A DNA stretch of 64,000 nt. It comes from Acidimicrobiia bacterium (GTDB lineage: Bacteria; Actinomycetota; Acidimicrobiia; Acidimicrobiales; Poriferisodalaceae). The position numbers were made by a program, and so were the translations under genes. Positions within the stretch are counted from its first letter, which is position 1, and each line of letters opens with the position of its first letter. The notes beneath the pieces are model-generated. The model was not told where the DNA came from and ran no database searches. It worked only from the letters and a program-made list of their open reading frames with translations. Shown here one piece after another: positions 10,260 to 34,437 of this stretch. The stretch covers positions 62,001 to 126,000 of the forward strand of contig JAJECP010000024.1 of NCBI GenBank assembly GCA_022821985.1, given 5' to 3'.

Positions 10260-10403
10260 GGTGCTTGGGACAGCTGCGGTCGACGCTGACCGGGGACTTC
10301 GCCCCGAGCGCCGCTCTAGCATTCGATCGTGGATCGAGCCGCCACGGATCAGCGACATGGCCTAACGCCCTTTCGACTCAAGGAATCCGAGGCACGGCGA
10401 CGC

Positions 10404-11576
10404 ATGAACGTGAGCGAAGAAACCCCCACTGAGCTTCAGGCAGCTTCGCAGGCCGCGCTCGAGTGGATCAACGCAACGCAGGAGTCTCGCTACGAGATCA
10501 CCGGAGTCATCGACGCCGAAGACACCGTGACACGAGCGCAAGCAGGGTCCTTCGAACTGGGTTTGGTGCTGTGCAACGGCGACGTCTGTGCCCGTGAGCA
10601 GGTGGTGATCGAACGATCAGCCGAAGGCTTCCGAGTGTCGGCCGCCGAAGTTGACGATCCGCTGATCCCGCCGCTGCTCGACCCGCCGATCGGGGTACGC
10701 GCCGGATGGCTCAACGCCCAACTCGACAAGCACAAGTTCGTCGTGTTGGTGTTCTACCGCGGGTTGTGGTGACCTCCCTGCCGCCGCGAGTTGCGCGGCT
10801 TCGGCAAATCGGGAGTCGTCGAGGAGATCCGGGCTGCTGGAGGCGAGATCTTCGCCGTCACCAGTGAGCCCCAGAGTCTCGCGAGCGAAGCCCAGGACAC
10901 ATGGGAACTGGAGTATCAGGCGGTAGGCGACCCGCACCACGAGATCCTCGAAGACTGCCGTGAGAATGGCCGGTTCGACCTCTACATCGGCGACACCGGA
11001 GTGCTCGAGCGACACTGGTCTTCGCACCCGAACGGCATCTTTCAGGCTGGGATACTCGCCCTCAACGAGGACCGACGGGTGCTGTACCGGTGGCACTGTC
11101 GCCCGACTCATCAGAATCGTGGCGGTGCCTCCGGTCGAGTCACCGCGTCGCATATGTGGTCTCGCGTCCGAGACGGACTAGCCAGCGACACCGACGCCGC
11201 ATGGGATACCGATCCGCCACTCGACGCTCCAGAGGCCTTCTGGCCGTACTTCGTCGCTCAGCTGTTCGCCCATGGATGGTTCGTCAAGCCGAAGCGATTC
11301 CCGCTCGGCCGACCCGACGACAAGCCGTCCGCTCGCATATCCGCGATGAAGCCACGGCTCATCGGCTTCGCCGCGGCGTGGGCCATCTGCTTCGTGCTCC
11401 TGCCGGCTCGCCGGGTCCTCCTCGCTCTGGTCGGCTACGCCGTGGCCATCACACCGGCTGTCCGCAGGGTGAACCGCGAGTTCCAGCACGTTCCCGCCGG
11501 CCGCGCGCCCGAGCCCGGCGGGCGAAGCCTCGGCACCGAGCCTCTAACGCCTCACCCTCAACAGCCGAGTCGCTGA
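10404..11576 (+). CDS. Peroxiredoxin-like selenoprotein with in-frame UGA (Sec) and C-terminal membrane anchor
   Basis: A standard translation gives two pieces, one ending at the TGA at 10770-10772 and one resuming in the same frame. Reading the TGA as selenocysteine gives one 390-residue protein with the motif FYRGLW-U-PPCRREL. This matches the FYRGxWCPxC active site of the peroxiredoxin-like AhpC/TSA family, with Sec123 in place of the first Cys and Cys126 kept (UxxC). A hairpin fitting the bacterial SECIS rules starts two bases after the UGA. The region after the UGA continues as a thioredoxin fold and ends with about two hydrophobic helices (near 315-350), so the protein is probably membrane-bound. 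The ATG at 10404 is one choice; an earlier in-frame start at 10329 is possible. Likely role: reduction of a peroxide or other oxidant. A nonsense mutation is the alternative. Confidence 0.78.
10774..10815 (+). promoter_or_regulatory. Bacterial SECIS-like hairpin after the in-frame UGA
   Basis: The RNA just after the UGA can fold as CTCCC-TGCC-GCCGCG, loop AGTTG, then CGCGGC-(TTC)-GGCA-(AATC)-GGGAG: 15 paired bases with two one-sided bulges. The 5-base apical loop has G at its second position and begins 16 bases after the UGA. This fits the known bacterial SECIS rules (short loop with a G among its first two bases, 16-37 bases from the UGA). In the cell SelB would bind it to recruit Sec-tRNA. 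Confidence 0.7.
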
Positions 11577-33135: not shown

Positions 33136-34437
33136 TCAGTCCGCCAGCGCGGGAGCCCACCCTGAGGCTTCGCGTCGTTGGGTCTCAAGATTGCGCCACG
33201 CAGCATCGAAGTCGTCGCCGGTGGTGACACCGTCGATGGCGCCGGGGCCACGGAGCCCGCCGGGATCAGCCGTACCGATGAGCGTGTCCGCGTCGGGCTG
33301 GCGGAGAGCGGCCAGGAACATGCGGCGATGGGTGCGGATGCCGGCATCGGTCGGGCTGAGGTGTTCGGCGGTGCGGTCGAAGATGGGACCGGGCGACTCG
33401 ACCGCCCACTGATCGTGAACATTGATGTCGGCGCCCATGCCGGTGTAGGTCCGCTCGCGCTGCTCGACCGGATCGAACCCCCAGTTGTTCGATTCGTCGG
33501 CGATTGGCTGGTACCCCGGCAGGGTGACCTGGCTGATGCGCTGCGCCCGCATGACTTCGGCATCGACAGGGTCGCCGTAGCTGACGAACATCGAGTACCA
33601 GTAGCAGCGGCGGTCATCGATGGGGACATGCCACTGGAAGATGCTCATCTCCCGGCTCATCGCGATCGTGATGGCGTTGGGGAAGATGCAGTTCGAGACT
33701 CGGACATGGGTGAACTCATCCCGGTACCGGCGCAGCGTCCGGGACCGGAAGCCGAACGGGGTGAGTTCGATCGTGATGTCGGGCGCAGCGGCTTCCCGCA
33801 TCAGCTCCGCGACGGTCACATCGGTGTCCGCGATGGTGTCGCGGAACTGCAGCCCATAGGTGCCGTCGGTGGCACCAAGGAAGCGATGCAAGAACGCCGC
33901 ATGCGCCGGGTCTATGCCGACTTCGTGAGCCTGCAGCCAGTTGCACCCCCACATGCCCTTGAACGCGAACACCTGCGGGCCCGGCGCCACGAAGCAGTCC
34001 AACCCAGGAAGCTCGGGCGGATCGCCGTCGCCCAGGAAAGCCCACACGATGCCGTTGCGCTCGGCCACCGGGTAGTGGACTTGGCACACCCTCGTGTGGA
34101 ACGTCGATGCCGGCGGCTCTGCGGGGGTCTCGAGACACGCACCGGTCACGTCGAAGAGCCACCCATGGAACGGGCAGCGCAGACCGCCGTCTTCCACCCG
34201 GCCATACGACAGATCGACTCCACGGTGGGGGCAGCGGCGCCCGATCATGCCCAGCCGATCCTGATCGTCACGAAACAGCACGAGGTCCTCTCCCAGCAAG
34301 CGAACCGGGACCACCGGCCGATCGCTGTCGAGTTCCTCAGTGAGGGCCGCCGGCTGCCAGTACCGGCGAAGCACATCGCCTCCCGGAGTTCCCGGGCCGC
34401 TTTCGGTCAAGAGTCGGTTCTCATCGGCACTGACCAT
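33136..34437 (-). CDS. Rieske aromatic-ring oxygenase (phthalate 4,5-dioxygenase-like)
   Basis: A 433-residue oxygenase alpha subunit of the single-component phthalate-dioxygenase group. Rieske ligands are in CPHRGVDLSYG and LRCPFHGW, and the iron site is in HEVGIDPAHAAFLHRF. The group uses a separate reductase and no beta subunit. The ATG at 34437 is selected because GGGAGG lies just upstream. It precedes the GS-like gene by three bases, and a 20-bp palindrome lies in its own 5' region. Confidence 0.9.
   Translation of the reverse strand: MVSADENRLLTESGPGTPGGDVLRRYWQPAALTEELDSDRPVVPVRLLGEDLVLFRDDQDRLGMIGRRCPHRGVDLSYGRVEDGGLRCPFHGWLFDVTGACLETPAEPPASTFHTRVCQVHYPVAERNGIVWAFLGDGDPPELPGLDCFVAPGPQVFAFKGMWGCNWLQAHEVGIDPAHAAFLHRFLGATDGTYGLQFRDTIADTDVTVAELMREAAAPDITIELTPFGFRSRTLRRYRDEFTHVRVSNCIFPNAITIAMSREMSIFQWHVPIDDRRCYWYSMFVSYGDPVDAEVMRAQRISQVTLPGYQPIADESNNWGFDPVEQRERTYTGMGADINVHDQWAVESPGPIFDRTAEHLSPTDAGIRTHRRMFLAALRQPDADTLIGTADPGGLRGPGAIDGVTTGDDFDAAWRNLETQRREASGWAPALAD

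Follow-up and report, generated by a model that had tools for sequence, protein, structure and literature searches.

Selenoproteins with a peroxiredoxin-like (Prx-like) fold and a UxxC active site are an established family: thiol:disulfide oxidoreductases of this kind (PF00578) appear in Table 1 of PMC13188914, the GOS study (PMC2398784) counted 225 sequences in a group named "Prx-like 1", and Actinobacteria are given among three selenoprotein-rich phyla in PMC1794560. The gene reported here lies at 10404-11576 on the forward strand of the window (i.e., the whole stretch of 64,000 nucleotides that was analysed) and very probably encodes a Prx-like UxxC selenoprotein, in which the UGA at 10770-10772 would be read as selenocysteine (Sec) with the help of a downstream hairpin. 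We assign a probability of about 0.88 to this explanation as a whole, which draws on decoding machinery, conservation and structure. The initial annotation had suspected an undescribed type of selenoprotein, a claim that does not hold in view of the known family. Like its members, the predicted protein combines an AhpC-TSA domain with a UxxC active site, but it adds parts at both termini that match nothing in Pfam (compared by description). Judged from its sequence, it is thus the known Prx-like UxxC kind with extra terminal parts, in one genus of uncultured actinobacteria. It thereby adds to Prx-like selenoproteins a domain arrangement that we did not find described in the open-licence papers searched, and a search of the same scope returned no paper on acidimicrobial selenoproteins.

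Two other described systems can be set apart by motif or score. Classical selenocysteine peroxiredoxins carry TxxU, whereas the target reads GLWUPPC, and the model of the SelL-related redox protein (NF040769) gives it 23.6 bits against a curated cut-off of 120. No PDB sequence matched at E up to 0.01, and a tblastn search of plasmids returned no match at 1e-5; at E up to 1, the latter yielded 86 records and, among the 30 listed, the match covers the core region only. The features of the locus are as follows:

10404..11576, + strand: putative selenoprotein gene of 390 codons, interrupted by one internal TGA and ending in the TGA at 11574-11576
10404..10688, + strand: N-terminal part (residues 1-95), which contains the invariant C57 and C62 and matches no Pfam family
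10722..10952, + strand: AhpC-TSA domain (Pfam PF00578), residues 107-183, E 4.5e-10, 40 bits against a cut-off of 26
10770..10772, + strand: UGA, putative codon for Sec at residue 123, where the UPPC motif begins
10783..10799, + strand: putative bacterial SECIS hairpin core, 6-bp stem, loop AGTTG
11358..11459, + strand: possible membrane anchor made up of two hydrophobic stretches (residues 319-333 and 338-352)

The Active-Site UGA and Its Probable Decoding

As the initial annotation had observed, the gene forms a single frame whose sole break, at codon 123 of 390, falls on the position of the active-site Cys (FYRGLW-U-PPC). The predicted splitting by standard gene callers is also borne out, since the open reading frame (ORF) listing gives two pieces, one of 147 aa at 10329-10772 and one of 261 aa at 10791-11576. 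Such Sec-blind calling breaks the gene inside its active site, and the relatives are therefore probably mis-annotated. The TTG start that the listing places at 10791 could suggest two separate genes, yet a split at this point would divide the U from the C of UPPC and halve the domain. In a variant of this reading, the UGA would be read through with insertion of an ordinary amino acid (Trp or Cys), and some UGA read-through does work without Sec machinery; against this, Sec is favoured by the Cys that relatives have at the exact column and by the completeness of the Sec machinery. We consider either form, two genes or ordinary read-through, very improbable.

The decoding genes are indeed all there. 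Their absence had been named beforehand as grounds for dismissing Sec insertion, but selA, selB, selD and tRNA-Sec are all present in the source genome (3.3 Mb in 41 contigs, 89.87% complete): SelA is encoded with an E of 2.9e-96, SelB (E 2.2e-81, above cut-off) lies 95 bases downstream of the SelA match, SelD is found at E 4.7e-106, and tRNA-Sec, with anticodon TCA, scores 66.3 bits against a gathering score of 47. A second tRNA-Sec match above the gathering score proved to be a tRNA-Ser. SelA occurs in all 37 searched genomes of the same bacterial family, source genome included. The SelD gene (L020, contig 10) has an in-frame TGA of its own, in GAGUACK, and probably encodes a selenoprotein itself, as SelD is known to be elsewhere.

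Selection across the UGA within the Genus

The gene, with its one TGA, was recovered from 10 of the 11 genomes of the genus (source included), the gene records of which are metagenome-assembled genomes (MAGs). Codon 123 is TGA in all ten copies (the window and L046-L054). Taken by itself, this invariance is weak evidence, because invariance among the genus copies extends to 88 of the first 246 codons. In pairwise comparisons of the window with each of the nine other copies, dN/dS ranges from 0.193 to 0.387 before the TGA and from 0.089 to 0.163 after it, the same nine comparisons being used for both parts. The 267 codons beyond the TGA, for which a coding character had been claimed from the letters alone, are thus evidently translated in the frame of the gene and under strong purifying selection. 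Likewise, none of the nine relatives shows any further disruption, one of them (L054) being cut by the end of its contig after 246 codons.

These results bear on the reading of the locus as a pseudogene, or as a sequencing or assembly error, according to which the TGA would be either a genuine stop or artefactual, with the remainder in decay. Most ORF callers would report a broken gene, and one member of the genus (G002, L031) does retain just the last 24 codons, beside the conserved enolase-superfamily gene. However, the identical TGA recurs in 10 genomes, and the nine relatives combine the absence of any other stop or frameshift with the low dN/dS after the TGA, which leaves such an explanation with a negligible probability. 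Because of this conservation and selection, we reject the pseudogene, error and two-gene readings alike. SelA is present in G002, despite the loss of all but the remnant of the gene.

Cysteine and Probable Selenocysteine in Homologues

A profile of the whole protein, run against 397 genomes of the order, found matches in 8 genomes of the genus and in 14 others; the 15 matches from these 14 genomes, which belong to other families, all have Cys at the aligned column. A profile of the core, run against 396 genomes of the phylum, returned 24 matches outside the source genome, with Cys in 16, TGA in 7 and Ser in 1 (some of the Cys rows, L085 and L088-L090, being thioredoxin-like rather than Prx-like). 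The alignment of homologues that had been called for therefore gives Cys or TGA outside the genus, save for that one Ser. L097, L101, L103 and L109 are left out of this tally, L041 and L098 are one gene, and L108 is the target itself.

The best matches outside the genus are two Cys homologues (L057 and L058) from two other families of the order, with E-values of 2.0e-24 and 2.3e-23 over residues 106-274; they have Cys in place of Sec and match the target neither in its N-terminal part nor at its hydrophobic C-terminus. A second Prx-like gene with a TGA is found within the same bacterial family (L041/L098 and 13 more matches) and reads FYRSAVW-U-PPC. It is about 36-38% identical to the target over some 70 residues in the genus, has a different and longer C-terminal part, and falls on a separate branch of the tree; the 14 matches to this paralogue in a search of 61 relatives all have TGA. 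In other families of the phylum, Sec probably occupies the same motif in genes of the form FYRGDW-U-PYC (L077, L078, L079, L081, L083 and L095, with PFC in L093), but their match to the target is limited to the core of about 75 residues and their termini differ. Cys forms of these genes occur within the same family, f77. The proteins of f77 (L074, L077-L081, L083, L087, L091, L092, L095 and L096) are of the FYRGDW-x-PYC type and show Sec in some species and Cys or Ser in others at this column, a pattern of close-range Cys/Sec exchange.

A tree built from 49 core sequences places the Cys forms L057 and L058 as sister group to the gene's Sec clade (96/97). This tree was computed without L034-L036, L040, L042-L045, L085, L088-L090, L097-L099, L101-L104 and L107-L109, and without five of the nine genus relatives (L046, L048-L050 and L054). 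Mapping the Sec and Cys labels onto it requires 5 changes, at least 4 of which are forced by supported branches, while the deep branching order is unsure because of several long branches and a short alignment. The nearest relatives outside the genus are Cys forms, and a Sec clade beside them makes the direction of the exchange testable.

A Putative SECIS Element

The strong evidence for Sec insertion is comparative. The TGA shared by all ten genus copies, selection downstream of it and Cys or TGA in relatives, along with the machinery and the lack of any other disruption, all point to the Sec insertion proposed by the initial annotation. The hairpin itself is as then described (starting two bases after the UGA, with loop AGTTG 16 nt away and G at loop position two). 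Its stem pairs 10783-10788 with 10794-10799 (GCCGCG/CGCGGC), and in a single-sequence fold the outer helix starts at the second base after the UGA. Bacterial SECIS loops lie about 16-37 nt from the UGA.

Several results speak for a structure at this place. The fold has an energy of -23.4 kcal/mol (z -3.14), which 1 of 200 shuffles equalled, and the fold energy of the hairpin region was reached by 27 of 5000 synonymous redraws. The 6-bp stem and its loop, the latter 16 nt after the UGA, are found in all ten genus copies, where substitutions at two of the six pairs retain pairing, L054 having changed on both sides. For bacterial SECIS elements, PMC1088965 describes a small apical loop that contains a guanosine. 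In the SECIS check suggested earlier, the hairpin with G in its small loop is thus present in 10 of 10 copies, but the minimum-energy folds pass the rule in 7 of 10 (L046, L050 and L052 fail) and the genus shows no significant covariation, column shuffles reaching as much in 162 of 500 cases. Moreover, the hairpin matches no Rfam family.

The chance background also has to be considered. Of the 365 codon positions of the gene, 81 satisfy a loose SECIS rule, as do 2218 of 5000 synonymous redraws; such rules are often met by chance in a GC-rich gene, and the hairpin alone is weak evidence. With stricter definitions the numbers drop, as 196 of 5000 synonymous redraws yield an exact 6-bp stem at equal distance with G among the first two bases of the loop, and of 365 codon positions 2 have a 6-bp stem at the exact place, the TGA itself being one of them.

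Comparison with other TGA genes gives a mixed picture. One further TGA gene of the source genome (L100) has the loop AGTTG at equal distance, closed by 6 pairs with different stem letters, which provides independent support for the hairpin of the target gene. These two are the only ones among the six TGA rows of the genome with at least 4 pairs in register, and none of the 21 TGA rows elsewhere (14 from the paralogue, 7 from the phylum) has at least 4 pairs in the exact register. The letters AGYTG occur at the place of the hairpin in 14 of 14 paralogue, 5 of 7 phylum and 3 of 6 own-genome TGA rows, i.e., in 22 of the 27 TGA rows of the compared loci, target counted. They are present as well in 11 of 31 Cys rows (6/15 from the order and 5/16 from the phylum) and in the Ser row, so that they are partly fixed by the protein. 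Since loose rules are common by chance and AGYTG is seen in Cys rows, we do not accept the hairpin as proof of Sec and keep it as supporting evidence.

Proposed Function and the Terminal Parts

According to the mechanism that we propose, SelB and Sec-tRNA-Sec would decode the UGA at 10770-10772 as selenocysteine, aided by the hairpin just downstream. Motif and family suggest that the product belongs to the Prx-like UxxC kind and acts as a selenol/thiol oxidoreductase with a peroxiredoxin fold. By family analogy, Sec123 would attack a peroxide or a disulfide and Cys126 would resolve the intermediate as an internal selenenylsulfide, which a thioredoxin-type donor might then reduce. More speculatively, the N-terminal Cys pair C57/C62 may serve as an electron relay, and the C-terminal hydrophobic part (residues 319-352) may hold the enzyme at the membrane.

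Neither the N-terminal part (about 95 residues) nor the C-terminal part has a Pfam match, and a profile of the latter, run against 396 phylum genomes, gave 2 weak matches besides the source genome. Two AlphaFold models are poor (mean pLDDT of 36.6 and 39.9). The initial annotation had described a membrane-tethered form; two hydrophobic stretches are present, and from hydropathy an anchor role is plausible. Kyte-Doolittle hydropathy reaches 1.95 over 19 residues, in a region (residues 319-352) interrupted by PARR. The selenoprotein might instead be soluble, with stretches that are buried or amphipathic and no membrane anchor, and we give this an even chance: at about 15 residues each, with PARR between them, the stretches are short for a membrane-spanning helix, but their hydropathy tells against a soluble form, as do the high conservation of the region within the genus and the fact that it is not seen in the Cys relatives L057 and L058. 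A more elaborate scenario, which we put forward tentatively and consider rather doubtful, is a membrane-tethered selenoprotein in three parts, with a Prx-like UxxC selenol domain, a C-terminal hydrophobic hairpin that would hold it at the cytoplasmic membrane and an N-terminal part carrying C57/C62 as a second redox pair. It would have arisen by Cys/Sec exchange in an acidimicrobial lineage, the nearest outside relatives being Cys forms, and would act on peroxides or disulfides at the membrane.

Genomic Setting and Other In-Frame TGAs

The source genome has 13 AhpC-TSA matches, 6 of which contain one in-frame TGA. Besides the target, these are the following genes, each with the TGA in its active site:

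L098, contig 7: UPPC
L099, contig 4: UGC
L100, contig 22: UPYC
L105, contig 23: UPNC
L106, contig 23: UPAC

These five further genes suggest a selenoproteome rich in Prx-like proteins and, with 6 of 13 AhpC-TSA matches carrying an in-frame TGA in one genome of 3.3 Mb, point to a genus rich in Prx-like selenoproteins. Elsewhere in the window, in-frame TGAs were scanned by script for Sec-like motifs and the one at 33138(-) was inspected; it joins, by eye, a Rieske-oxygenase-like frame to a glutamine-synthetase-like frame, for which a gene boundary is likelier than a Sec codon.

Comparison of six neighbouring ORFs with Pfam revealed no redox partner. Upstream, the substrate-binding protein is found within the 3 kb flank in 1 of 9 relatives; downstream, the convergent enolase-superfamily gene is kept in 7 of the 8 full-length relatives.
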